DNA of 27,211 nucleotides from IMG/VR virus record IMGVR_UViG_3300030106_005773, positions 1 to 27,211 of that record. One strand, 5' to 3'. The notes under the pieces are model-generated. The model searched no databases and had not been told where the DNA came from. It saw only the letters and a program-made list of their open reading frames with translations. Origin of the DNA: a virus. Position 1 is the first letter of the stretch, and each line of letters starts with the position of its first letter. Position numbers and translations under genes: made by a program. Shown in pieces: positions 4,474 through 20,319 of the stretch.

Positions 4474-5913
4474 GTGAGATACAAATTTAAACACAAACCG
4501 TATGAGCATCAATTAGATGCCTTAAATAAATCATGGAATAAGCCTTATTTTGCTTATTTTATGGATATGGGTACAGGTAAATCAAAAGTACTCATAGACA
4601 ATATGTCTATACTCTATGATAAAGGTCAAATAACAAGTGCTCTCATCATTGCACCCAAAGGTGTATACAAAAATTGGGAGCGTAAAGAAATACCCACTCA
4701 TTTACCTGAACACATAGAGGCGAATGTAATTGCTTGGTCACCTGAAAAAACACAGAAAAAACAAAAAGAATTAGAATCCTTATTTGAAGTAAACGATAAA
4801 CTACAAATATTCTTAATGAATGTAGAGGCGTTTAGCACAAAACGAGGCTACGAAATAGCAGATAAATTTTTATGTTCTCACCGATCTCTTTTAGTTGTAG
4901 ATGAAAGCACTACGATCAAAACAAGAACTGCTCAAAGAACTAAGAATTTAATTAAACTGAGCAAACACGCTCCCTACAGAAGAATACTTACAGGGTCTCC
5001 AGTAACTAAATCACCTTTAGATTTGTTTACACAATGTGAGTTTTTAGAACACTATGTATTAAAACAAGGTAGCTTCTGGACTTTTCAAAACAGGTACGCA
5101 AAACTGATGAGAAGAACAGTGGGTAATCGTAGTTATAACCAAGTTTTAGGTTATCAAAATTTAGAAGAGTTAAACGGTATCATAGAACCTTTCAGTTATA
5201 GAATTCGTAAAGAGGAGTGTTTAGATTTACCAGATAAAGTATACACTCGTCGCACAGTAGAACTTACAGAGGAGCAAGAAAAGTTATATAAACAAATGAA
5301 AAAAACTGCACTAGCGGTCATAGAGTCAGAGGGTTTAGTGACAGCACCCACAGTTCTTACTCAATTACTAAGGCTACAACAATTATGTTCAGGGTTTGCA
5401 AGACTAGAAGATGGTAGAACTATTGAGGTAGCCTCAAATAAAATAAACGAACTGTTAAGTTGTTTAGAAGAAACAGACGGTAAGGTAATCATATGGGCAA
5501 ATTTTACTCATGACCTAGAACATATACAAAAGGTTTTAGCTGAAAAATATGGATCTGACTCTGTAGAACTATTTTACGGAGAAACCAATGCAGAACTAAG
5601 ACAAGATATTGTAGAGCGTTTCCAAGATCCTAACCACCCAATGAGATTTTTTGTAGGACAACCAAGAACAGGAGGCTACGGTCTTACTTTAACACAAGCA
5701 AAGACTGTTGTTTACTACAGTAATGGTTATGATTTAGAAATAAGACTACAGAGTGAAGATAGAGCTCATCGCATAGGACAAACCAATAAGGTGACTTATG
5801 TGGATATTGTGACTGAAAAAACAGTAGATGAAAAAATTATAAAAGCTCTCAGAAGTAAAATAGATATTAGTAGTCAAGTGTTAGCAGAGGGACACAGAGA
5901 ATGGATTATTTAA
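4474..5913 (+). CDS. SNF2-like SF2 DNA helicase/translocase
   Basis: A 479-residue two-lobed SF2 ATPase. Visible motifs are a Q-like region near residue 12 (EHQLDAL), Walker A DMGTGKS at 31-37, Walker B/DEAH-like VVDEST at 141-146, motif III LTGSP at 172-176, and motif VI QSEDRAHRIGQ at 426-436, which is diagnostic of the SNF2/Rad54 branch. The length is close to the bare two-lobe core, so there are no obvious accessory domains. It probably hydrolyses ATP to move on duplex DNA during replication, recombination or chromatin-protein removal. The start is GTG with only a weak purine-rich ribosome-binding site (AGAAAG). It is the first gene of the replication block and is followed by a 196-base gap. 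Confidence 0.95.
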   Translation: MRYKFKHKPYEHQLDALNKSWNKPYFAYFMDMGTGKSKVLIDNMSILYDKGQITSALIIAPKGVYKNWERKEIPTHLPEHIEANVIAWSPEKTQKKQKELESLFEVNDKLQIFLMNVEAFSTKRGYEIADKFLCSHRSLLVVDESTTIKTRTAQRTKNLIKLSKHAPYRRILTGSPVTKSPLDLFTQCEFLEHYVLKQGSFWTFQNRYAKLMRRTVGNRSYNQVLGYQNLEELNGIIEPFSYRIRKEECLDLPDKVYTRRTVELTEEQEKLYKQMKKTALAVIESEGLVTAPTVLTQLLRLQQLCSGFARLEDGRTIEVASNKINELLSCLEETDGKVIIWANFTHDLEHIQKVLAEKYGSDSVELFYGETNAELRQDIVERFQDPNHPMRFFVGQPRTGGYGLTLTQAKTVVYYSNGYDLEIRLQSEDRAHRIGQTNKVTYVDIVTEKTVDEKIIKALRSKIDISSQVLAEGHREWII

Positions 5914-6109
5914 GGTTTACTATATACAACCAAAACCAAAGAAACATAAAAATGTTTTTCATGAAATTTCCGATATACAATATACTTTCGGGTCTACGCG
6001 AAAATATTGGAGAAAAAAAGTGTTATTTTATGGGGGCTTTTAGTGTGTAATAGTAAAAGTAAATATATTAAATATAGCGGAAAATTAATCAACCATGTGG
6101 AGAAAGTAC
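5914..6109. promoter_or_regulatory. Intergenic control region with repeated GGTCTACGCGAA motif
   Basis: A 196-base gap with a TATACT box (5981-5986; poor -35) immediately followed by TTCGGGTCTACGCGAA (5987-6002). Almost the same sequence recurs only in the other large control region near 25155. A 29-codon ATG frame (5961-6050) runs across the motif, but it has no ribosome-binding site and I do not call it a gene. The likely role is promoter or protein-binding site for the transcript that starts with the next gene. Confidence 0.45.
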
Positions 6110-6445
6110 ATGACTGTATATATAACACAAGAAATGAGGGGTAGAGATATTACCGACGCCACAAGCTTTGGTGATGTTGAAATACTTATCCCTGCAGGAG
6201 AACAAGCGAGTTACGCCACCCAACCTACCATTAGGAAAATGAAGCGTAAGCTCAGCAAATTCACGGACGAAGATTACTTGTTGTTGTCTGGTGATCCAGC
6301 GATTATTGCTTTGGCTTCTTCCATAGTAGCTCAAGTAAATATGGGCAGATTTAAAATGCTTAAATGGGATCGCCAAGAAAACAAGTATTTTCCTTTGTCC
6401 GCTAATATTAACCAAACATTAGGAGGTAGTGATGAGTCAATTTGA
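6110..6445 (+). CDS. Conserved-looking hypothetical protein (111 aa)
   Basis: I choose the ATG at 6110 because TGGAG (6098-6102) lies 7 bases before it. An in-frame ATG at 6095 has no ribosome-binding site. The product is soluble, with a basic middle (IRKMKRKLSKF) and an alternating hydrophobic pattern suggesting a small alpha/beta fold. No recognised domain. Its end overlaps the start of the next gene by 14 bases, so translation is probably coupled. It opens a short operon leading to the coiled-coil and acidic-tail proteins of the replication module. Function unknown. Confidence 0.85.
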   Translation: MTVYITQEMRGRDITDATSFGDVEILIPAGEQASYATQPTIRKMKRKLSKFTDEDYLLLSGDPAIIALASSIVAQVNMGRFKMLKWDRQENKYFPLSANINQTLGGSDESI

Positions 6446-6992
6446 AGATGTAGCAAACAAGCTAAACTCAGTAGATGAGAAAGGCTTGAGTGAAGTAAGT
6501 AAGCTATGTCAAAAACAAGTTAATCTCCAAGAGCAAGTAGACTCTTTGGAAGAACAACTAAAAGAAACCAAAAGGCAACTGAAAGAGGTCGCTGAAGACC
6601 AACTTCCAGCTGCGATGGCAGAGCATAATCTAACTAAGCTAGAGCTTGAAGATGGATCTGCTATAAATGTAAAAAAATTCTATAGTGCTTCTATTCCTAC
6701 AGATAGAAAGGATGAAGCTTTCAAATGGTTGGTGGACAATAAGTACGGAGATTTGATTAAAAACCAAGTTTCTACAAACTTTGTTCGCGGCCAAGAGGAA
6801 GAGGCACGAAAGTTCACAACAGAACTTGTAGATAGAGGATTGGCGGTAAGCTCTAAAACATGGGTTGAGCCAATGACATTAAAGGCTTTTGTGAAAGATC
6901 AAACAGAGCAAGGGAAAAACGTACCCCAAGATTTGTTTGGTCTGTACATAGGAGAAAAGGCAACAATCGTAAAACCAAGAGGTAAAAAATGA
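6432..6992 (+). CDS. Coiled-coil protein of the replication module (186 aa)
   Basis: The start at 6432 follows a perfect AGGAGG (6421-6426); the GTG one codon earlier is less likely. Residues about 20-62 form a strong coiled coil with regular Leu/Val/Glu spacing. The remainder is a mixed alpha/beta domain ending in a Lys/Arg tail. The layout of an N-terminal coiled coil followed by a small globular domain recalls phage recombination helpers such as Mu Gam or Siphovirus Gp157, but I see no specific motif and do not assign either. It overlaps the next gene by 4 bases and probably forms a functional pair with it. Confidence 0.9.
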   Translation: MSQFEDVANKLNSVDEKGLSEVSKLCQKQVNLQEQVDSLEEQLKETKRQLKEVAEDQLPAAMAEHNLTKLELEDGSAINVKKFYSASIPTDRKDEAFKWLVDNKYGDLIKNQVSTNFVRGQEEEARKFTTELVDRGLAVSSKTWVEPMTLKAFVKDQTEQGKNVPQDLFGLYIGEKATIVKPRGKK

Positions 6993-7816
6993 ACGATAAG
7001 AAAGAAGTAGCCGTCAAAAAAGAAGGAGGGGCTTTAGCAACCGCTGAAAGCTTCGAAGCTTTGTCGTCTGCTGGTTTTGATGAAGTAACCACAGATGACA
7101 TAGCCGTACCTTTTTTAAGGATACTGGCAGATGGTTCACCACAAGTTAAAAAGCGTGACGGTGCGTATGTGGAAGGAGCTGAGCCAGGAATGATATACAA
7201 TACTGTACTTAACGAAGTATATGATGGTGAGAAAGGTATTAAAGTTATACCATGCCATTACAATCGTCGTTTTGTAGAGTGGATACCAAGAGAAACTAAG
7301 GGCGGTGGATATGTTCAATCATTTGATCCATCTGATCCCATAGTAAACACCACAACAAGAGATGATCAGGGTAGAGACGTGCTTGAAAACGGCAACTATC
7401 TAGCAAATACTGCTCAGTTTTTTGTGTTGTTCTTACATGAAGAATTAGGCATACAAAGAGCTTTGATTGCCATGACTTCTACACAACTTAAAAAATCTCG
7501 TAAGTGGTTAGCTCAGGCACAGTCGATAACTGCAAAAGGTAAGAACGGAGTATTTACTCTACCTTTAATGTCCCAAGTATATAATCTCAGCACTATACCA
7601 GAGTCTAATGATAAAGGCAGTTGGTATGGTTGGGATATAACAAGGGATAGACAGTTAGACCTTACAAACGATGAAGAGTCAAGTATATTTGATACTGCTG
7701 TTGGATTCGGTAACTCTGTAAAACAGGGTGATGTACAGGTTAAGTCAGACAATGCTGACGAGTCTTGGGGCGATAACGAGAAAGTTATTGTTGATAACGA
7801 AAAAGAGGTAATGTAG
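6989..7816 (+). CDS. Acidic-tailed protein, candidate ssDNA-binding protein (275 aa)
   Basis: A 275-residue protein overlapping the previous gene by 4 bases (ATGA). It has a charged N-terminal tail, a central region rich in beta-strand-like and aromatic segments (residues about 60-215, with several Trp/Tyr/Phe), and a strongly acidic, flexible C-terminus of about 35 residues containing many Asp, Glu and Asn. A globular aromatic core plus an acidic tail is the classic layout of replicative ssDNA-binding proteins (SSB, T7 gp2.5, T4 gp32), and the gene sits beside helicases and a primase. I cannot recognise an OB-fold signature, so the function is inference. Transcription may partly end at the hairpin that follows. 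Confidence 0.9.
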   Translation: MNDKKEVAVKKEGGALATAESFEALSSAGFDEVTTDDIAVPFLRILADGSPQVKKRDGAYVEGAEPGMIYNTVLNEVYDGEKGIKVIPCHYNRRFVEWIPRETKGGGYVQSFDPSDPIVNTTTRDDQGRDVLENGNYLANTAQFFVLFLHEELGIQRALIAMTSTQLKKSRKWLAQAQSITAKGKNGVFTLPLMSQVYNLSTIPESNDKGSWYGWDITRDRQLDLTNDEESSIFDTAVGFGNSVKQGDVQVKSDNADESWGDNEKVIVDNEKEVM

Positions 7817-8119: not shown

Positions 8120-9643
8120 ATGAAAAATCTCGCAGAAGATTTATATAAATTATTTAAAGGTAGTGACATAGCACATGGAACATACATAGTAAAATCCAAT
8201 AGGAGCGATGGAAAAAAGCAAGGAACAGCAAAGGTTATAAGAGAGCCGACCACAGTTGCAATGTGGGAGGAACATTTAAAAGGAGGAACTGGTCTGGGTA
8301 TTATACCCATAAGAAGCGATAACACTTGTCAGTGGGGTGCAATAGATATAGATAAATATGATGTTAATCACAAGGTGTTAGTTTCTACATTAAGAGAAAA
8401 TAAAATTCCTGCAATCGTAGGAAGAACAAAGTCTGGTGGAGCTCACGTTTGGGTGTTCTTATCAGAGCCTATTGATGCAGAAGACATGCAAAGAAAAATG
8501 ACAGAATTATCTGCTGCTCTAGGACATTCGGGTAGTGAGGTGTTTCCTAAACAAACTAAAATATTAATAGATAGAGGAGACACGGGAAACTTTTTAAACA
8601 TGCCCTATCATTCAGATTCTCGTACAACAAGGTACGCTTTTGATGACAATGGGGAAGCTCTTAATACAAAAGAGTTTTTGGACTATGTTCAACCTTTCAT
8701 TACAACACCTAATAAATTCCGTAAACTAGACACAAGTTTTGGAACAGACGAAGAGGTGTTACAGGACGGTCCGCCATGTTTACAACATTTGTGTAGGAAA
8801 GGTTTTGGAGAGGGCAGTAGAAACAATGCTCTATTTAATTTAGGCGTGTATGCAAGAATGTCTGACGGTGATAATTGGGAAGTTACAGTCCAAAGATACA
8901 ATATGGATTTTTTAAAACCTCCTCTTTCACATAATGAGGTGGGGCTTGTGATCAGACAGCTAAAAAAGAAAGACTACTTTTATAAATGTGAAGACCAACC
9001 CATCAAACCTTTTTGTGATAAACAAGTTTGTAAGACTAGAAAGCATGGAGTCGGTCCTGCTGGCATTAGTAACGACATGTCTAGTTTAACTAAAATAGAC
9101 GGGGATCCACCCATATGGATATTGAACGTAGACGGTGAACGAGTAGAGCTTTCTACTAATGGTTTGACTAGCCAAGTTCAATTCCAAAAGGAATGTGTTG
9201 GTCAAATAAATAAGTTCCCAGTGGCCATGAATCAAAGAGCTTGGCAATCAAGAATACAACTTCTGCTCGATAATTTAACCATTGTAGAAGTTCCACCAGA
9301 TGCTACACTGAGAGGTGAGTTTGAAGATTTACTCCACGCTTTCTGTTGTGAAAGAGCAAAAGGAGAACAAAGAGAAGACATACTACAGGGGGTAGCGGTT
9401 TGGGTTGACGATAAGGTTTACTTTCAAGTAAAAGATATTAAGAAGCACCTATCGGTAAATGACTTTAATCATTACACCTCTAATAAAATAACTCTAAGAT
9501 TACAAGAGCTCAAAGCAGAAAAAATGTTTTGGAGAGTAAGGGGGAAAGGTGTGCATGTCTGGTCTATTAGCCAGACTTTTTTCCAAAATGAAGAAGGAGA
9601 AATAGAGCTACCAAACCTCCCAACAGACGAGGATGTAATTTAA
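8120..9643 (+). CDS. AEP-superfamily primase-polymerase, TOTE-type
   Basis: A 507-residue archaeo-eukaryotic-type primase. Visible motifs are the metal-binding DxD pair in WGAIDIDKY (D76, D78), the SGGAHVW motif with H109, and downstream EVFPKQ and GNFLNMPYH segments. This spacing matches the TOTE conflict-system/phage primase family. Residues about 215-310 form a PriCT-like region with GSRNNALFNLGVYAR and cysteines C220, C225, C290, C299 and C304, likely holding a zinc or iron-sulphur centre. The C-terminal 170 residues (about 335-507) look like a separate helical, DNA-binding-like domain. It probably makes primers for the phage polymerase. The stop overlaps the start of the next helicase (TAATG), so the two are translationally coupled and likely act together. 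Confidence 0.93.
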   Translation: MKNLAEDLYKLFKGSDIAHGTYIVKSNRSDGKKQGTAKVIREPTTVAMWEEHLKGGTGLGIIPIRSDNTCQWGAIDIDKYDVNHKVLVSTLRENKIPAIVGRTKSGGAHVWVFLSEPIDAEDMQRKMTELSAALGHSGSEVFPKQTKILIDRGDTGNFLNMPYHSDSRTTRYAFDDNGEALNTKEFLDYVQPFITTPNKFRKLDTSFGTDEEVLQDGPPCLQHLCRKGFGEGSRNNALFNLGVYARMSDGDNWEVTVQRYNMDFLKPPLSHNEVGLVIRQLKKKDYFYKCEDQPIKPFCDKQVCKTRKHGVGPAGISNDMSSLTKIDGDPPIWILNVDGERVELSTNGLTSQVQFQKECVGQINKFPVAMNQRAWQSRIQLLLDNLTIVEVPPDATLRGEFEDLLHAFCCERAKGEQREDILQGVAVWVDDKVYFQVKDIKKHLSVNDFNHYTSNKITLRLQELKAEKMFWRVRGKGVHVWSISQTFFQNEEGEIELPNLPTDEDVI

Positions 9644-11553: not shown

Positions 11554-12558
11554 ATGTCACACGAAATTGAAACAATGGCGTATGCAGGAAAGGTTCCTTG
11601 GCATGGATTAGGGGAAAAAGTTGAAGACAACATGACCCCTGAAGAAATGCTAGTGGCAGCTGGATTAGATTGGTCAGTAAGTAAGCGTCAAGCTTATACT
11701 GTTGACAAACCTAACTGCTGGAACATTATCGATCCTACTGGTGAGGCACAATTTATTAAATGCGAAGATCATTACTATGTTGTTCGTGATACAGATAACA
11801 AAGTGCTTTCACATTGTAAGGATAGCTATGTACCTTTTCAAAACAAAGAAGTTATGAGCTTCTTTAAAAAGTTTACCAAAGCAGGACAAATGACTATGGA
11901 AACTGCGGGAAGCTTAAAAAACGGAAAAGAAATATGGGGTTTAGCAAAAATCTCTTCTGACTTTAAACTAGCAGGAGGCGACCATGTTGAGAGTTATTTA
12001 CTACTTAACAACAGCCATTCTGTAGGAAAAGCGATGACAATTATGCTAACACCTATAAGAGTTGTTTGTAATAACACTCTTCAAATAGCTTTAAAAGACG
12101 GAAGTATGTCTTATAGGATACCACATGTAAGAATGTTTGATGAGGAAATAATTCAATCTGCAGAGCAAGCTCTGGGGCTGAGTACTGAACAAATGAAAAC
12201 ATTCAAAGAGCAATCTGAGTTTCTTGCTAGTAAAAAAGCAAAAGACAAAGAAGTAGATACTTTTGTTGCGGAGTTATTCCAACCAAGTTTAGTTGGTGCG
12301 GACAATATTAGAGAAGCACTTACTAACACTGCTGACACTGTCAGACGTGCAATAGAAACAAGTCCAGGAGCTGAGCTTTCATCTTCAAAGGGTACTTGGT
12401 GGGGAGCACTCAATGGTGTGACTTATGTAATGGATCACACTAAACGTGCAAAAGAGAAAGAAGAAGGAAATGCTTTGCATTCCGCGTTCTTTGGCTCTGG
12501 TGCTAACCTTAAAAGGAAAGCTTTAACAAGAGCTATTGAGTATGCGAAAGCAGCATAG
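11554..12558 (+). CDS. DUF932 phage/plasmid-like protein
   Basis: A 334-residue protein starting MSHEIETMAYAG followed by VPWHGLGEKV, the hallmark of the DUF932 family (TIGR03299, 'phage/plasmid-like'). Length and the central segment around TPIRVVCNNTLQIAL agree with the family. DUF932 proteins are common in phages and mobile elements; the biochemical role is not established. An excellent AAGGAGG site lies 7 bases before the start. The gene ends just before a stable hairpin (12568-12612), which separates it from the next small gene. Confidence 0.93.
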   Translation: MSHEIETMAYAGKVPWHGLGEKVEDNMTPEEMLVAAGLDWSVSKRQAYTVDKPNCWNIIDPTGEAQFIKCEDHYYVVRDTDNKVLSHCKDSYVPFQNKEVMSFFKKFTKAGQMTMETAGSLKNGKEIWGLAKISSDFKLAGGDHVESYLLLNNSHSVGKAMTIMLTPIRVVCNNTLQIALKDGSMSYRIPHVRMFDEEIIQSAEQALGLSTEQMKTFKEQSEFLASKKAKDKEVDTFVAELFQPSLVGADNIREALTNTADTVRRAIETSPGAELSSSKGTWWGALNGVTYVMDHTKRAKEKEEGNALHSAFFGSGANLKRKALTRAIEYAKAA

Positions 12559-12869: not shown

Positions 12870-13148
12870 ATGGATGCACCAACAATAAATATAAACCAAG
12901 AGCAAGCTGAGGCTGTAGCAAAAAAAGTAAACATTATGGGAAACGACCATACCATTAAATATCTAAGGATACTTCATGACCATTATCTTAGGATTGTGGA
13001 TGATGTGCAGATTTGTACTTTTAATGATTGTTTATGGTTGATGTGTATTAAAAAAGAGATTACAGCTATAAAGAAAAAGTACGGGACTGGTTGCCCAGAA
13101 AAAATAGCTGAAATGCAAAAAAAGGAGAAAAAAGATGCGGGGAAGTAA
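12870..13148 (+). CDS. Small hypothetical protein (92 aa)
   Basis: The start at 12870 is chosen because GGAG (12859-12862) lies 7 bases before it, and because it directly follows the previous stop. A longer frame reaching back to 12831 has no ribosome-binding site. Predominantly helical, with a Lys-rich C-terminus and four cysteines not in an obvious zinc-binding spacing. It overlaps the start of the hypermodification gene by 14 bases. Confidence 0.75.
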   Translation: MDAPTININQEQAEAVAKKVNIMGNDHTIKYLRILHDHYLRIVDDVQICTFNDCLWLMCIKKEITAIKKKYGTGCPEKIAEMQKKEKKDAGK

Positions 13149-14022
13149 AATGTATGATTTTTATAACTGGATAAACAAAAGACATGCTATTTATCTTAAA
13201 CGATTAGAAAACCCTTTTGATCCACCTTGGACAAATGATCTCATTCTTCAATCTTATAAATTTACTAATGTGTTCAGAGAACTCGACAGAACAACAAGGT
13301 GGATGAGAAAAAATTGGACAAAGCCAAACAAAGACAAATCTCATGCAGAGATAATATTTAATTGTTGTTTGTTTAGAATGATAGGTACAAGCGAGTTTGC
13401 TGATGATCACGGTTGGGTTTCAAATTATGAATGGGATCCAGATTATACTATAAATGTTATAGAAGATAGACTCACAGAAAACAGAAGATGTTTTACAGGT
13501 GCGTATATAATAACTAATCAAGGATTAAAAGCTAAGAAATCTCAAGTAGTGGTAAATCATTTTTTAAAACCAATTTGGGAAGATCGTAACAAACTCGCAG
13601 AATGTGCCGAAACTAATTATCTAGAAGAGTTACATAAAAGATTTGCAGAGTATAAAGGTTGGGGCGGAGGTGGTTTTATGGCTTACGAAGTTGTAACTGA
13701 TTTAAACCATACTCCCGTTTTAGAAAAAGCAACAGACAGATACACTTGGGCAAACGCTGGTCCTGGAGCAATTCGTGGCTTGAACAGGTTAAGTGACAGA
13801 CCGTTAAATAAGAAGATCACACAAAAAATAGCGAATGAAGAAATGCACTATCTTATGATGCAAAAGAATCTTTACTGTATGGAACATGTTCCGTTATCAG
13901 AAATAGATATGAGAGCAATAGAACACAGTTTGTGTGAATGGGATAAATACGAAAGAGTACGGTTAAATCAAGGCAGACCTAGAAGTAAGTTTAATGCGAT
14001 TGATGCTAAACCATTACTCTAG
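13135..14022 (+). CDS. Putative thymidine hypermodification protein (5-hmdU kinase helical / aGPT-Pplase family)
   Basis: A 295-residue protein with motifs of the family NCBI labels 'putative DNA base hypermodification protein': TNVFRELDRTTRW (about 43-55), GPGAIRGLNRL (about 215-225), and near the C-terminus RAIEHSLCEWDKYERV (about 261-276). In the literature (Iyer, Aravind and colleagues; Lee, Weigele and colleagues) this helical fold belongs to the alpha-glutamyl/putrescinyl-thymine pyrophosphorylases and the helical domain of 5-hydroxymethyl-dU DNA kinases, which act on 5-hmdU in phage DNA. No P-loop kinase domain is present in this polypeptide. The start at 13135 has AAGGAG 7 bases upstream; an ATG at 13150 is also possible. 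It is followed by a glycosyltransferase and a dUMP hydroxymethylase candidate, which supports a DNA-modification role. Confidence 0.82.
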   Translation: MRGSKMYDFYNWINKRHAIYLKRLENPFDPPWTNDLILQSYKFTNVFRELDRTTRWMRKNWTKPNKDKSHAEIIFNCCLFRMIGTSEFADDHGWVSNYEWDPDYTINVIEDRLTENRRCFTGAYIITNQGLKAKKSQVVVNHFLKPIWEDRNKLAECAETNYLEELHKRFAEYKGWGGGGFMAYEVVTDLNHTPVLEKATDRYTWANAGPGAIRGLNRLSDRPLNKKITQKIANEEMHYLMMQKNLYCMEHVPLSEIDMRAIEHSLCEWDKYERVRLNQGRPRSKFNAIDAKPLL

Positions 14023-14050
14023 AAATAACATGAGTAATAAGGAATAGTAA

Positions 14051-14080
14051 TTGACTTAAACTTTTCGTATAATATATAAT
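14051..14080 (+). promoter_or_regulatory. Sigma70-like promoter before glycosyltransferase gene
   Basis: TTGACT (14051-14056), an 18-base spacer and TATAAT (14075-14080), 26 bases before the ATG at 14106. It is one of the best -35/-10 pairs in the window. It would allow the glycosyltransferase and hydroxymethylase genes to be expressed separately from the upstream gene. Confidence 0.65.
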
Positions 14081-14105
14081 TAAACTAAAAACAAAGGAGC
14101 GTAGA

Positions 14106-15371
14106 ATGAAGTTCCTCATGACTTTATTTCAGATACAAGACTACGGTGGCATTATAAACCATGCTGAAAATCTCGCACTAGGTATGAAAGAACTAGGGCA
14201 TGAAATTGATTTTTGCATACTTGCCCCTAAAAAAGAAGTAGTAAGAAGACACACCGTACCCAAAGACATACATCAATATCGTAAGTTAGGCACGGGATAT
14301 CGTTTTCACCAAGCAAGAGGTTGGTATGGATTACCTAAAATTCCATATCTAAGTAGTTATCATAGAAGTTTATTTAAGGAAAAATGCGGTAAGTACGATG
14401 CAGTCCTATGGCATATACCTGTACCGACAATGAGTAAAGAAAACAAAAACATAGATCAGTGGTTAGACTTATATGATCATGGTACAAAAAACATTGCAAT
14501 TATACACGATGGTAATATGCCTGAGCTTTATCCTCACATGTTAAAAGTTGCAGAACACTTTGACTCGTGTGTTTGTGTTCATGAGTCCGCTTTTAATTCT
14601 TCAGAGGTTTTACCAATACCAAGAAAATTAATTGTAAATCCATTTGATCTTAGTAATAGTGCGGAAGAGGACTACAGCACTCGTAATGGATTTGCAGCGA
14701 TACAAGTATTTAAAGGTTGGAAAAGAGTAGATAGTTTGATAAAAGCTATTCCACACATGCTTCGTGGCCAACGTAAAATTGTAGGTGGTGAAGGAATAGA
14801 ATACAGATACATGACCAGTAAAGATAAATGCAAAGATAAATACTTTTACGAAGATGGTTCAAGGATATGGGATGTTGCCTTAGAACACGGAATGAAACAT
14901 ATTGGCACAGTTCCCAATGAGGAAGTTTTAGAAATTTTAAAAAAGGTGAGACTACAAATAGATCCTAGTTATAGTAAAAAGTACAGCGAGTTTGGAGCAC
15001 ATTTTAACAGAACAACTGTAGAAGCCATGATTTGTGGAGCAGTTCCAGTTGCTACAGACTGGGGTATGAAGAATAGTAAGATTTTTAAACCAAATGAAAA
15101 TTACATAGAGATCCCAGCAGGATGTGAAAGTACAGTGTTTGCAGAAATTATTGATAATGGTTTAACAGATTCAGTTTTATGGCACAAGATTAGGGATAAC
15201 AATCGTTCTTTAATTCAGATGTTTGACCAAAAAACAGTTGCTAGTGAGTATGTTTCACTGGTTGAGGGAAAAAGTAATACAACAATAGGAAAACCAAGCG
15301 AAAAAACCATTGCAAAATGCAATAAAAATTTAGATTTCTTCTCTGTGGGGCATATCGATGCCATTAGATAA
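14106..15371 (+). CDS. GT4-like glycosyltransferase, possible DNA-base glycosyltransferase
   Basis: A 421-residue GT-B-fold glycosyltransferase. The N-terminus (FLMTLFQIQDYGGIINHAENLA) has the beta-strand plus Gly-Gly acceptor-side loop typical of GT4. In the donor half, FKGWKRVDSLIKAI is the linker motif, and FNRTTVEAMICGAVPVATDWG (E306, with E295 upstream) matches the nucleotide-sugar binding segment. No signal peptide or membrane anchor, so it is cytoplasmic. Its place between the hypermodification protein and the thymidylate-synthase-like gene suggests that it transfers a sugar to a hydroxymethylated base in DNA, as phage beta-glucosyltransferases do. Alternative: modification of host surface or virion proteins. 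The ribosome-binding site is AAAGGAG. Confidence 0.85.
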   Translation: MKFLMTLFQIQDYGGIINHAENLALGMKELGHEIDFCILAPKKEVVRRHTVPKDIHQYRKLGTGYRFHQARGWYGLPKIPYLSSYHRSLFKEKCGKYDAVLWHIPVPTMSKENKNIDQWLDLYDHGTKNIAIIHDGNMPELYPHMLKVAEHFDSCVCVHESAFNSSEVLPIPRKLIVNPFDLSNSAEEDYSTRNGFAAIQVFKGWKRVDSLIKAIPHMLRGQRKIVGGEGIEYRYMTSKDKCKDKYFYEDGSRIWDVALEHGMKHIGTVPNEEVLEILKKVRLQIDPSYSKKYSEFGAHFNRTTVEAMICGAVPVATDWGMKNSKIFKPNENYIEIPAGCESTVFAEIIDNGLTDSVLWHKIRDNNRSLIQMFDQKTVASEYVSLVEGKSNTTIGKPSEKTIAKCNKNLDFFSVGHIDAIR

Positions 15372-15434
15372 GTCGCAATTTTGTAGGGTGTTATGGTATA
15401 GCAAGGTATTAAAACGAGGCAAAATGGGGGAAAT

Positions 15435-16415
15435 ATGAAGGCGAATATTATCAGGAATGTAAGCGAAGCTCTCTATCAGGGTGTAAATGGACTATATAGA
15501 CACGGTAGAGAGGTAAAAACTAGAAATGGCATGGCTTTAGAATTTAAAAGCCCAGTTGTGACAGAATACAGTCACCCATCAGAAAAGGTTTTGTTTTACC
15601 CAGAAAGAGATGCTAATCCATTTTTTCATTTAATGGAGTCCCTTTGGATGTTAGCAGGAAGAAACGATGTTGAATGGATTAGTAAGTTCAATGGTCGCAT
15701 AAATAATTATAGTGATGATGGTGAAACTTTCCATGGGGCTTACGGTTACAGATGGAGGAAATGGTTTGCAAAAGACCAATTACAAAAATGTTTTATAAGA
15801 TTAGCTACTTACGAAAACGATAGGAGAGCCGTGCTGACCATGTGGGATCCTACGGCAGACTTAGTTACTAGTAACGATGGTAAAGACTACCCTTGCAATA
15901 CTCAGATCTTTTTCTGGCGTAGGGATGAAATGTTACACATGTCCATTATAAACCGTAGTAATGACATGATATGGGGAGCTTATGGAGCAAATGCGGTTCA
16001 CATGGCAGTTTTACAAGAATACATGGCTGGTATGTTGAGAATAAGAGTAGGTAAGATGTATCAGTTTTCTAATAACCTACATGCTTATGTAGACGTGTTA
16101 GAAAAAATAAAAGACATAAAGAATGATTATGAAAATTATCTTACTATAGGAGACGATAACGGTCAGTATGATCCTGCTCCCATGCTGACCCACCCACATT
16201 CTTTTGACAAAGAGTTAGAAGAATGGTTTGAAGCAAATGAAGATCGTACTGATTATGAAAATGTTTTCTTAGGTGTGACAGCTACCCCTATGAGATATGC
16301 TTGGAAGCTGTACAAATCAAAGAAATTAGTAAAAGCAATAGAGGTTGCAAAAACTATCAATGATAGAGCATGGCGAAAGGCATGTGTTGAATGGTTACAA
16401 AGGAGGCAAAAGTGA
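15435..16415 (+). CDS. Thymidylate synthase-superfamily enzyme, candidate dUMP hydroxymethylase
   Basis: A 326-residue member of the thymidylate synthase/dNMP hydroxymethylase superfamily. Visible: folate/dUMP-fold N-terminus, catalytic Cys154 in YPCNTQIFF, and NRSNDMIWGAYGANAVHMA (173-191), equivalent to the RSxDxxLGxPFNxA motif. N186 aligns with E. coli N177, which selects uracil over cytosine, so dUMP rather than dCMP is the expected substrate. The sequence resembles phage hydroxymethylase-type members more than cellular ThyA, and its neighbours are modification proteins. I therefore favour dUMP hydroxymethylase (making 5-hmdUMP), but a plain thymidylate synthase cannot be excluded. The stop overlaps the start of the Nmad1-like gene, which links the two in translation. 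Confidence 0.92.
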   Translation: MKANIIRNVSEALYQGVNGLYRHGREVKTRNGMALEFKSPVVTEYSHPSEKVLFYPERDANPFFHLMESLWMLAGRNDVEWISKFNGRINNYSDDGETFHGAYGYRWRKWFAKDQLQKCFIRLATYENDRRAVLTMWDPTADLVTSNDGKDYPCNTQIFFWRRDEMLHMSIINRSNDMIWGAYGANAVHMAVLQEYMAGMLRIRVGKMYQFSNNLHAYVDVLEKIKDIKNDYENYLTIGDDNGQYDPAPMLTHPHSFDKELEEWFEANEDRTDYENVFLGVTATPMRYAWKLYKSKKLVKAIEVAKTINDRAWRKACVEWLQRRQK

Positions 16416-16732
16416 CTACAGAAAAGTTTATAGAAAACTTACAGGATCTTGTTAAAGATGATATCGAAGGTTTGGTAGAGGCAAAACGCTCTTACGGAAA
16501 CAGTTGGAAAAAGCGTGGCGGAGTTGGTGCTTTTATGATGCTTGCTCGTAAGTGGGATAGAATAGAAAACCAAGTTAAAGAAACTAATTATGATATTTTA
16601 TCAGCATGTAGGTCAAACATGAGCGATGATGGTATACTAGATGACATAAGGGATTTACGAAGATACTTATTACTTGTAGAAGAAGAGGTTAGTTTCATTG
16701 TTATAGAGGAAGCAAGAAGAGGTAAAAAATAA
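16412..16732 (+). CDS. Nmad1-like (DUF1599) nucleotide-modification-associated protein
   Basis: A GTG start at 16412 is preferred: AGGAGG (16401-16406) lies 5 bases before it and the codon overlaps the hydroxymethylase stop. A longer ATG frame from 16391 is less likely. The 106-residue all-helical product has KRSYGNSWKKRGGVGAF followed by a K-x-DRIENQV helix and a C-terminal D-x-x-RYLLLVEEEV helix. This is the pattern of nucleotide modification associated domain 1 (PF07659), which Iyer and colleagues found beside hydroxymethylpyrimidine synthases. It is similar in style to MazG-type nucleotide-binding bundles, and may control the modified nucleotide pool or partner the hydroxymethylase. Confidence 0.8.
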   Translation: MTTEKFIENLQDLVKDDIEGLVEAKRSYGNSWKKRGGVGAFMMLARKWDRIENQVKETNYDILSACRSNMSDDGILDDIRDLRRYLLLVEEEVSFIVIEEARRGKK

Positions 16733-16897
16733 TTGAATAAAGGATTAGATGAAAAAGCAAAGGCTGTTTGTGAGTGTGGGAAAATTGAAAAGATAGTAAC
16801 TTTTCGTAATCTTAAAAATAAATGGCCGATTTGTGAGTGTAAACAACCTATGAGAGTACATAAAAATGCAGATACCCCTGTTTCAACCTCCAACTGA
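16733..16897 (+). CDS. Tiny zinc-ribbon protein with TTG start (54 aa)
   Basis: An open frame from TTG at 16733, right after the Nmad1-like stop, with a plausible AGAGG site about 10 bases upstream. It encodes VCECGK, then 20 residues, then WPICECK: a CxC...CxC zinc-ribbon with the basic stretch IVTFRNLKNKWP between. Its last 32 bases overlap the DNA polymerase start. Without it there would be an unexplained 130-base gap in an otherwise gap-free operon. No ATG is available in frame near the start. Moderately sure it is real. Confidence 0.6.
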   Translation: MNKGLDEKAKAVCECGKIEKIVTFRNLKNKWPICECKQPMRVHKNADTPVSTSN

Positions 16898-18758
16898 GTG
16901 GGTTATGCCTGACGGCTACCCTGATTTATCAGCAGAACAAGAAATATGTATCGACCTAGAAACTAAAGACCCAAACTTAATGACAATGGGTAGTGGTTGG
17001 GCTAGAAGAGATGGACACATCATAGGCATCGCTGTTGCCTGTACAAAAGGAGAGTGGTACTTTCCTATTCGTCATGAAATTGGTCCCAATCTAGACGAGA
17101 AAATAACTCTCAACTGGGTGCGAGATTTATGTAGTATAAAGAGAAAGTATATTTTTCATAACGCTACTTACGATGTCGGTTGGTTACTTGCTGAGGGCAT
17201 TACTATTTCTGGCAAAATCATAGACACAATGGTCGTAGCCCCATTGTTAGACGAGAATCGTTTTAGTTATGCTCTTAATTCATTATGTAAAGATTACTTA
17301 CAAGACCGTAAGAGCGAAAAAGAGTTGTACGAGGCAGCCTCAGCTTTTGGAGTAAACGCTAAAAGTGAGATGTACAAACTTCCAGCATCACATGTGGGTT
17401 CTTATGCAGAACACGATGCTCGATTAACTCTTAAACTCTGGCAACATTTCAAACCCCTACTGGTTAAAGAGGACATACAAGATATTTTTAATTTAGAATT
17501 AGATATTCTCAAAACAATCATACCCATGAGACACAAGGGCGTAAGAGTAGATCTAGACAAAGCAGAAAAAATAAAAGAAGATCTTTTAAAGAGAGAAGAA
17601 AAACTATTGTCTGCTATAAAGAACAAGACAGGTATTGCTGTAGAGATCTGGGCAGCAGAGAGTGTGGCAAAAGTTTTTGATAAATTAGGTCTGTATTACA
17701 GTAAAACAGAAAAAACTCAAGCTCCAAGTTTTACTAAAGGATTTTTGGTCAACCACCCTCACGAAGTACCCCAAATGATTGTTCAGGCAAGAGAATACCA
17801 AAAGGCTCGGTCAACTTTTATTGACACTATTTTAAAACATCAGATAAATGGTCGTATCCATGCTGAGCTTCATCCTCTTCGTAGTGATGACGGTGGTACG
17901 GTGACAGGAAGATTTAGTTATAGCAACCCAAATCTACAACAGATTCCAGCTCGCCATGGAGAAATTGGTCCAATGATTCGTAGCTTGTTTTTACCAGAAG
18001 AAGACACAGTGTGGGGAGCCTTTGATTATAATAGCCAAGAGCCACGAATAGTTGTTCATTATGCTACCTTGATGAATTTTTATGGAGCAGAAGAATTTGC
18101 ACAACAGTATAATGAAGACCCATACACAGACTTTCATCAAATGGCGGCAGATATCGTGAACGTACCAAGAAAACAAGCTAAGGACATAAACTTAGGATTG
18201 TTCTATGGTATGGGAACTAAGAAGCTCGCTGCAAGTCTAGGTTTAGACTTTGAAGATGCACAAGATTTGTTTGCTATCTACCATGAAAAAGTGCCTTTCG
18301 TACGACAACTCCATGAGTACTGCTCTAATCGTGCAACAAATAAGGGAGTAATCCGTACTCTGTTGGGAAGAAGATGTAGGTTTGATAAGTGGGAGCCGAA
18401 CAAGTATGGAGTTTGGAAACCCATGACTTATCAGGAGGCATACAATGAACATGGTCCTGCAATCAAAAGAGCATTTACATACAAAGCTCTAAATAAATTA
18501 ATCCAAGGATCTGCAGCAGACCAAACGAAAGCGGCGATGGTCGCTCTTGCAAACGAGGGAATATTACCCATGATACAAGTACATGATGAGTTAGACATAT
18601 CCGTTGAAAGTGAAGCTCAAGCTAAACACATAAAAGAAATCATGGAGACCTGTGTTGAATTAAAAGTCCCAAGTGTTGTAGATGCAGAGGTCGGTACAAA
18701 TTGGGGAGAGGCAAAACAACCTTTTGAGGAGTATAAAAAATGGAAGACAAAAACTTAA
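16866..18758 (+). CDS. Family A DNA polymerase with 3'-5' exonuclease
   Basis: The replicative polymerase of the phage, 630 residues. The 3'-5' exonuclease domain occupies about 25-190: ExoI CIDLETKD (D30, E32), ExoII HNATYDV, ExoIII YAEHDARLT. The polymerase domain has motif A DYNSQEPRI (D387), the O-helix RKQAKDINLGLFYGMG (R435, K439, L443, Y447) and motif C QVHDELD (H573, D574). L443 aligns with E. coli Pol I F762, so this is a Leu762-type enzyme. There is no 5'-3' exonuclease domain. The chosen ATG gives the N-terminus MQIPLFQPPTEW. It overlaps the tiny zinc-ribbon gene upstream and the HD nucleotidase downstream. Confidence 0.97.
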   Translation: MQIPLFQPPTEWVMPDGYPDLSAEQEICIDLETKDPNLMTMGSGWARRDGHIIGIAVACTKGEWYFPIRHEIGPNLDEKITLNWVRDLCSIKRKYIFHNATYDVGWLLAEGITISGKIIDTMVVAPLLDENRFSYALNSLCKDYLQDRKSEKELYEAASAFGVNAKSEMYKLPASHVGSYAEHDARLTLKLWQHFKPLLVKEDIQDIFNLELDILKTIIPMRHKGVRVDLDKAEKIKEDLLKREEKLLSAIKNKTGIAVEIWAAESVAKVFDKLGLYYSKTEKTQAPSFTKGFLVNHPHEVPQMIVQAREYQKARSTFIDTILKHQINGRIHAELHPLRSDDGGTVTGRFSYSNPNLQQIPARHGEIGPMIRSLFLPEEDTVWGAFDYNSQEPRIVVHYATLMNFYGAEEFAQQYNEDPYTDFHQMAADIVNVPRKQAKDINLGLFYGMGTKKLAASLGLDFEDAQDLFAIYHEKVPFVRQLHEYCSNRATNKGVIRTLLGRRCRFDKWEPNKYGVWKPMTYQEAYNEHGPAIKRAFTYKALNKLIQGSAADQTKAAMVALANEGILPMIQVHDELDISVESEAQAKHIKEIMETCVELKVPSVVDAEVGTNWGEAKQPFEEYKKWKTKT

Positions 18759-19309
18759 AACTATTAGAAAAAAGATTACGAGGAGGTCAGGTTTTAAGAT
18801 ATCACACTCGCCCCGAAATAATGAATGGACAGAATGTCGCAGCTCACACTTGGAAAACAGTAGTGATTTTACACACTCTTTGGCCTGATGTGAGCAAAAA
18901 TACTCTTTTACACATGCTTTACCATGATGTTGCCGAGTTTGAAACAGGAGACATGCCAGCGACAACTAAATGGAAATATGACGAGCTTGCCCAAATCATG
19001 AACAGAGTAGAATCAGATTACGAAGACCAACTAGGTATTGGTGAAAACACGATAAAAGTATCCCCAAGAGAAAAGTCTCTTTGTGATATGGCAGATAAAC
19101 TAGAGTTAGTGTTTCATTGTCACAGACTACTGAAAGAGGGAAACACTCATGCAGAGGATGTTTTTATAAAAGGATATAACTATCTGAGATCTAAATATAA
19201 AGATAACAAAGATTTTAAAATTGTTGTCCCCATTCTTGAGGAGTTAGCTAAAACAAACCCCAGAAAAGATAGTATACAAGACATGCTAGAAAAACTCTAC
19301 TCTATGTGA
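18740..19309 (+). CDS. HD-domain 5'-deoxynucleotidase (YfbR-like)
   Basis: A 189-residue HD phosphohydrolase overlapping the polymerase end by 19 bases. Metal ligands are H36, the H62-D63 pair in HMLYHDVAEFETGDMP, and D116/D119 in CDMADKLEL, in YfbR-type spacing. E66 matches the YfbR catalytic glutamate. YfbR-family enzymes dephosphorylate dNMPs. In a phage making unusual pyrimidines this could remove unwanted dTMP, dCMP or other monophosphates, or act in salvage. That link is inference from context. Confidence 0.92.
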   Translation: MEDKNLKLLEKRLRGGQVLRYHTRPEIMNGQNVAAHTWKTVVILHTLWPDVSKNTLLHMLYHDVAEFETGDMPATTKWKYDELAQIMNRVESDYEDQLGIGENTIKVSPREKSLCDMADKLELVFHCHRLLKEGNTHAEDVFIKGYNYLRSKYKDNKDFKIVVPILEELAKTNPRKDSIQDMLEKLYSM

Positions 19310-19637: not shown

Positions 19638-19810
19638 AACAAAAAAATATAAACTTAAGACCAAACGAAAACTTATACATGAGCGTTTACGAAGACGGAA
19701 CAGTAGAATACATTCCTGCTACACCAAAAGACCACAAAAAAGAAGTTAAAAGGTTGAGAAATCTTGGGGTTGTGTTTGCTACTGAAAAAAGAAACGATTT
19801 AGTAAAATGA
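19634..19810 (+). CDS. Small basic hypothetical protein (58 aa)
   Basis: ATG at 19634 overlaps the previous stop, and its own stop overlaps the ATG of the next gene at 19807, an ATGA chain that argues for real translation. AAAGGAAA just upstream can serve as ribosome-binding site. The product is basic, with a short beta region (LYMSVYEDGTVEYIPA) and a Lys-rich helix. No family recognised. Confidence 0.72.
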   Translation: MKQKNINLRPNENLYMSVYEDGTVEYIPATPKDHKKEVKRLRNLGVVFATEKRNDLVK

Positions 19811-20319
19811 ATATATTTATATTGAGTTGGGATCACCAAACCAATGCTCAGTGGCATTGTGATAAGCATGTAGTCAAAATGCCATTAGAAACCACCCAAA
19901 TGCTGAGCACCGTTTATCATCGATATACTAATGATGGTCCTTACAAACCTGTTCACCAAAAGCATCCATGTACTCTCTGGGCAGGAACCACCATTGATAA
20001 CTATAAATGGTTGCATGATTTAGGTGTAAGTCTTTGTAAAGAATACACTTATCGTTACGACAAGATTCACGCTTGTGAAAAAGTTCTTGCATTGATCGCT
20101 GAGCCTCCTGTACAGTTAAAAGAGGAAGGTTTTACTACGCCCTATCAGGCAATGCCTGAAGAGTACAAAGACAGAAATACTCTTGTGGCTTATCATAACT
20201 ATTACATAAATGAAAAAGCGAGGTTTTGTAAATGGAAAAGAAGACCAATCCCAAAGTTCATGCAGACAGTCATGGCACAAATGTTATCCCATTCAAGGCA
20301 AGACCAACCCCTATCGTAG
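19807..20319 (+). CDS. Conserved phage protein resembling the pyrimidine-dimer glycosylase fold
   Basis: A 170-residue protein. Its N-terminus MNIFILSWD followed by HCDKHVVKMPLETTQML is reminiscent of phage proteins related to the T4 endonuclease V/Pyr_excise group (a His-x-x-Lys-His helix near the start), followed by HPCTLWAGTTIDNYKWL and EYTYRYDKIHACE. The matches are by eye and the catalytic N-terminal Thr of T4 DenV is absent, so DNA glycosylase activity should not be assumed. Its rich set of Trp, Tyr, His and Cys residues suggests a compact enzyme. It overlaps neighbours on both sides, by 4 bases upstream and about 88 bases downstream. Confidence 0.85.
   Translation: MNIFILSWDHQTNAQWHCDKHVVKMPLETTQMLSTVYHRYTNDGPYKPVHQKHPCTLWAGTTIDNYKWLHDLGVSLCKEYTYRYDKIHACEKVLALIAEPPVQLKEEGFTTPYQAMPEEYKDRNTLVAYHNYYINEKARFCKWKRRPIPKFMQTVMAQMLSHSRQDQPLS

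Follow-up and report, generated by a model that had tools for sequence, protein, structure and literature searches.

What does a phage attach to its thymidines when genes of a 5-hydroxymethyl-2′-deoxyuridine (5-hmdU) pathway lie next to a glycosyltransferase (GT) and no 5-hmdU kinase is seen beside them? The question is raised by the IMG/VR virus record IMGVR_UViG_3300030106_005773 of a marine-type phage, whose 27,211 bases were analysed as a whole and are called the window in the following. A sequence-only reading had placed four genes of a DNA-base modification pathway in a row at positions 13135-16732: a protein with 5-hmdU kinase helical motifs (PF18723 HMUDK_hel, here "hel"), a glycosyltransferase, an enzyme of the thymidylate synthase superfamily and a small Nmad1-like protein. 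In the list of open reading frames (ORFs) all four run the same way, and neighbours either overlap or lie only a short distance apart (Table 1). We consider it probable that this cassette yields a sugar-bearing thymidine analogue in the phage DNA via 5-hmdU, where we infer both the chemistry and the role of hel. Most likely it represents a sugar branch and not the kinase and amino-acid type of the phages M6 and ViI.

That the pathway starts from 5-hmdU is indicated by the synthase, which matches PF00303 (E 5.5e-20) and, far more closely, phrog_5131. The uracil-selecting asparagine noted beforehand is present: N186 aligns with N177 of E. coli ThyA, C154 is the nucleophile, and R174, D177, H216 and Y218 are retained as well. 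The position of ThyA W80 is occupied by I89 in the window enzyme and by M or A in its relatives, which is suggestive only. In a small tree the synthase groups with M6 gp58, PaMx11 gp51 and the enzymes of Sonora and RHph_I72 (support 96/99), separated from E. coli ThyA and the T4-type td (support 97/97); the clustering with cellular ThyA that had been named as speaking against a modification cassette was not observed. The best sequence match in the PDB is a CMP 5-hydroxymethylase, ranking above ThyA. The DNA of M6 was reported to carry 5-hmdU-derived thymidines (PMC6449724) and its genome holds a single gene of the synthase family, so that gp58 is by elimination its 5-hmdU synthase. For the window enzyme we propose a dUMP 5-hydroxymethylase, with the hydroxymethyl product deduced from the family.

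The hel protein is a true member of PF18723. Residues 7-279 are aligned to model positions 5-278 of 281 with 167.7 bits (cut-off 25), a full-length match which bears out the motif-based assignment to the 5-hmdU kinase helical/aGPT-pyrophosphorylase group; PF18724 (ADDT) is matched weakly, with 19.5 bits and under its cut-off. Together with the grouping of the synthase among the M6 and PaMx11 enzymes, this upholds the view of a 5-hmdU-based cassette. The AlphaFold2 (AF2) model of hel finds its best PDB match in the glycinyltransferase gp46 of PaMx11 (8z2n, Z 11.7), followed by helix-hairpin-helix (HhH) DNA glycosylases including Ogg and Mag with Z of about 10, a value that helical models can reach by chance. 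A Foldseek search with the model gave weak matches (best E 0.24) and searches of PDB sequences with the hel profile returned nothing meaningful. The Z values are suggestive of the predicted HhH DNA-glycosylase-like fold but do not prove it. Core motifs, among them an invariant polar core, are common to hel proteins that are paired with a kinase and those that are paired with a GT, and 59 positions reach a conservation of 85% or more in the kinase-paired, the TAGT-paired and the window-type groups alike. Conservation at these positions whatever the partner argues for a single, partner-independent task of hel. In Bacillus phage Goe26 kinase and hel are fused to one protein of 636 amino acids, from which we conclude that hel works with a neighbouring enzyme. 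By analogy, hel probably recognises or flips the 5-hmdU base for its partner, and for the branch found in the window the Pfam name, "5-hmdU DNA kinase, helical domain", gives a wrong impression.

A kinase is the expected partner. In M6 the P-loop kinase gp54 (PF18748) adjoins hel gp55, with the ADDT gp51 (PF18724), a pyridoxal-phosphate (PLP) enzyme gp52 and a radical S-adenosylmethionine (radical-SAM) protein gp53 further on. None of gp51-gp54 has a phmmer match in the window, in agreement with the earlier remark that no P-loop 5-hmdU kinase is seen there, and among the first 99 relative loci no gene had gp51, gp52 or gp53 as its best match. PF18748 was absent from 22 contigs of relatives (43-69 kb, most of them 50-69 kb) under conditions in which the M6 positive control was detected, and also from further GT-bearing contigs and from the complete genome of Brevibacterium phage LuckyBarnes. 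A kinase hidden under another family was considered and dismissed: when five long contigs of relatives were scanned for Walker-A motifs, no shared candidate emerged. The hits were the UvrD helicase, several chance motifs (mostly in virion-like ORFs) and, in contig G013 only, a small ORF resembling a P-loop kinase. The sequence-only reading had left two ways out, a kinase elsewhere in the genome or a different chemistry; with PF18748 absent from the long relatives and a GT beside hel, the evidence favours the latter. As an aside, the 5-hmdU kinases M6 gp54 and PaMx11 gp49 (L101:9426-9989, L236:4839-5408) are labelled "terminase small subunit" in public phage records, which looks like a mistake passed on from one annotation to the next.

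How strictly kinase and GT replace each other was evident from panels assembled in different directions. Starting from hel, 98 dereplicated IMG/VR loci were compared, with the genes named GT_D included in the class "GT-type" with reserve. The kinase was found in 29 and a GT-type gene in 57 of them, both together in none and neither in 12, most of these being cut off or devoid of a synthase. When only loci with both flanks are counted, the numbers are 17, 48, 0 and 5. Starting from the GT, 70 relatives of the window enzyme (29-79% identity) have hel nearby in 63 cases, the synthase in 66 and the kinase in none. The seven without hel comprise two contigs with the GT shifted upstream, which also appear as L034 and L058, where hel is present, and five with the GT match at the contig end. 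The use of kinase or GT beside hel is near-exclusive, and the GT family of the window is dedicated to hel/synthase loci; it even occurs beside very divergent hel proteins (L175, L186).

Between hel and synthase, the place of the GT is an exchangeable slot. Depending on the contig it holds a window-type GT, a TAGT (PF20691), the GT-B-like GT_C or an unassigned protein, GT_D, and in two contigs it is vacant with the GT relocated upstream. At least 15 switches of slot type are counted along the tree of hel proteins, and well-supported sister pairs differ in it (L050 with GT_C and L070 with GT_A; L046 with GT_C and L032 with GT_A). TAGT of the phages T2 and T6 adds glucose to phage DNA (PMC13216743, PMC13390438). 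In the loci studied here, TAGT is accompanied by a radical-SAM/SPASM protein and mostly also by an NrdR-like zinc ribbon, suggesting an extra tailoring step on sugar or base. Examples of radical-SAM/SPASM genes beside the slot TAGT are L022:11172-12957 and L168:8668-12146, the latter with two radical-SAM ORFs and a PIG-L-like protein. In M6-like phages, at L160:4848-6504 and L141:1266-2898, a GT-B gene and, directly behind it, one for a PIG-L-like de-N-acetylase stand upstream of hel where the kinase would be expected, which hints at an amino sugar. An FkbM-type methyltransferase adjoining the slot GT_C was seen once (L023:12036-12728); here, O-methylation of the sugar is possible.

The window gene itself was rightly called a glycosyltransferase, as it matches Glycos_transf_1 and its AF2 model adopts the GT-B fold with structural matches above Z 25, led by the T4 DNA alpha-glucosyltransferase (AGT, Z 26.6), HepE (26.2) and PimA (26.1). 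It has no PF20691 match, no detectable kinship to the T4 beta-glucosyltransferase and no relative among 50,697 phage records; a search of bacterial genomes gave a single relative, on a contig of a metagenome-assembled genome. GT_C is a remote homologue (hhalign E 1.4e-5). From its gene context, we propose that the window GT acts on a base in DNA.

These observations can be combined to the following scheme. As judged from its family, the synthase would turn dUMP into 5-hydroxymethyl-dUMP, to be incorporated at replication. The HD nucleotidase and the Nmad-like protein encoded nearby may tune the nucleotide pool, the HD enzyme possibly by trimming dNTPs. After replication the GT-B enzyme would move a sugar from a nucleotide-sugar donor onto the hydroxymethyl group of 5-hmdU, giving a residue like base J. 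More tentatively, hel may recognise and probably flip 5-hmdU, serving the GT in the way its homologues serve the P-loop kinase of the M6 type. Extended to the whole family, hel could be a general reader of 5-hydroxymethyluracil coupled to interchangeable chemistries, either a P-loop kinase (amino-acid type) or several unrelated GTs (sugar type), in part joined by a deacetylase, a methyltransferase or a radical-SAM protein for tailoring; to this wider view we give even chances.

Several points weigh against a sugar branch with hel as helper of the GT. Exclusivity is not absolute, for 2 of 79 loci collected from the kinase side also have a GT-like gene: L332 combines kinase, ADDT, hel, a weak TAGT and a radical-SAM protein, and L386 a kinase with a GT_D-type gene. 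The loci are phylogenetically linked, as the class of kinase or GT switches only about three times on the hel tree, and the synteny p-values, which take no account of phylogeny, are descriptive. GT_D lacks Pfam, PHROG and profile support as a glycosyltransferase, hence the reserve in its count as "GT-type". No fusion of hel and GT occurs in the locus panel. The tie of T4 AGT with HepE and PimA means that the fold is no proof of a DNA acceptor, the window record is a fragment of 27 kb, and the long relative contigs are not certified complete. A hidden system of the ordinary M6/ViI type, with kinase and amino-acid transferase elsewhere in the genome and the GT as an extra step, would draw on this fragmentary state, on the hybrid loci and on the pairing of hel with a kinase in M6, PaMx11 and Goe26. 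We hold it to be quite unlikely: in M6-type loci the kinase adjoins hel, none accompanies the 70 relatives of the window GT, PF18748 is missing from the long relatives as well as the further GT-bearing contigs, and the only unexplained P-loop kinase-like ORF of the five scanned contigs is that of G013.

Very improbable, in our estimation, is a GT that modifies the host surface (lipopolysaccharide or O-antigen) or a virion protein and stands in this place by chance. Folds of the GT4 type mostly make surface sugars, and HepE and PimA fit the model as well as T4 AGT does; yet the family of the window GT is restricted to hel/synthase loci, follows even strongly diverged hel proteins, and shares its slot with TAGT, a family with DNA-acting members (PMC13216743). 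An explanation that we regard as unlikely, but take more seriously, makes hel itself the catalyst, for instance a transferase similar to PUGT of PaMx11, which adds a group to 5-hmdU that is then extended by the GT. The glycinyltransferase 8z2n as best structural match, the weak PF18724 match and the polar core that is invariant across the hel groups would all fit. By its title, however, PUGT has 5-PmdU, a phosphorylated base, as substrate, the kinase to make 5-PmdU is absent, and systems with a kinase have a separate ADDT gene. A hel protein that flips the base for the GT is the reading we prefer.

Among characterised systems, M6 (gp51-gp58) is similar in its synthase homologue gp58, its hel homologue gp55 and the comparable order of its PolA and HD genes, but the window has a glycosyltransferase instead of kinase, ADDT, PLP and radical-SAM genes. 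T-even DNA glucosyltransferases act on hydroxymethylcytosine, and T4 is not known to have a hel partner. With these enzymes the window GT shares the GT-B fold of AGT, and TAGT fills the same slot in sister phages, the difference being the missing PF20691 match. The structural counterpart of the window hel in PaMx11, gp46, is an ADDT, whereas the hel protein of PaMx11 is gp50. Base J resembles the predicted type of product; there, the thymidine hydroxylases JBP1/JBP2 form the base within DNA (PMC10276184), in contrast to the nucleotide synthase proposed for the window. Pairing of aGPT-PPlase1 with a thymidylate synthase was published for HTVC023P-type pelagiphages (PMC9599517), where the same pair lies near PolA, and the window PolA is 57% identical to that of 023Pt_psg01, a phage of this lineage (Table 1). 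The available part of that paper does not describe the absent kinase, the exchange of kinase for GT or the swappable slot. The thymidine of Yersinia phage YerA41 bears an oligosaccharide-like modification of roughly 1 kDa (PMC9023294), a precedent for sugar on phage thymidine. The isolate LuckyBarnes (50,774 bp) has the same kinase-free design of hel, synthase and GT, arranged as synthase-TAGT-TAGT-hel beside PolA. The exchange of a kinase for a transferase beside hel appears to be new, as no report was found in a literature search that left out the main papers of the field.

For the fourth gene, the previous annotation held in part. Its GTG start does overlap the TGA of the synthase and is preceded by a perfect AGGAGG, with an alternative in-frame ATG upstream at 16391, and the gene is a conserved neighbour with profile matches in 128 loci. 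Membership of Nmad1 by profile was not obtained: the window protein has no Pfam match even at E 5, and PF07659 (Nmad1/DUF1599) is touched by one of 12 relatives (E 0.02). The name Nmad1 is a weak, motif-level lead. In LuckyBarnes a related Nmad1-like domain is fused to the synthase.

Table 1. Genes of the cassette and its conserved downstream neighbours in the window.
Feature	Position	Strand	Evidence
hel, PF18723 HMUDK_hel, 295 aa	13135..14022	+	PF18723 4.8e-49; 36% identity to M6 gp55; AF2 pLDDT 89
GT-B glycosyltransferase, 421 aa, exchangeable slot	14106..15371	+	Glycos_transf_1 6.6e-9; AF2 pLDDT 88
Thymidylate-synthase-superfamily enzyme (C154, N186)	15435..16415	+	phrog_5131 2.8e-105; ~44% identity to M6 gp58; tree
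Nmad1-like small protein, GTG start	16412..16732	+	Ribosome binding site AGGAGG; profile relatives in 128 loci; Pfam support weak
Family A DNA polymerase (PolA), conserved next gene	16866..18758	+	PF00476 1.7e-61; 57% identity to phage 023Pt_psg01
HD/YfbR-like 5'-deoxynucleotidase, conserved neighbour	18740..19309	+	PF12917 4.1e-10; same surroundings in M6 (gp59)

The order hel-[slot]-synthase-Nmad-PolA-HD is shared by dozens of relative contigs, so the genes are clustered far beyond chance. A DUF932 protein (11554-12558) is the constant upstream neighbour of hel in the clade, and a protein resembling it lies near hel in LuckyBarnes (L233:6625-7626). Downstream, a gene similar to pyrimidine dimer glycosylases (19807-20319; PF03013, E 1.9e-4, just under the Pfam cut-off) often adjoins in relatives. 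Elsewhere in the window we noted an SNF2-type helicase (4474-5913) that is on the + strand in the closest relatives and inverted in most others, a conserved block of three adjacent homologues of cyanophage Pam3 gp32-gp34 (6095-7816) and an AEP-type primase as in TOTE conflict systems (8120-9643; PF22548, E 2.3e-21).

If sugar transfer is confirmed, the function of the "kinase helical domain" family would be redefined, and glycosylated 5-hydroxymethyluracil is predicted to be a widespread DNA modification of marine phages. The prediction can be tested in culture with LuckyBarnes and its host Brevibacterium iodinum ATCC 15728, and DNA glycosyltransferases acting on 5-hmdU would be useful for mapping modified bases. 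With the slot, closely related phages would exchange the last step of the chemistry, a pattern that an arms race against restriction enzymes leads one to expect. Should hel indeed be a general reader, marine phages would hold a large and fast-swapped family of base-J-like glycosylated thymidines.

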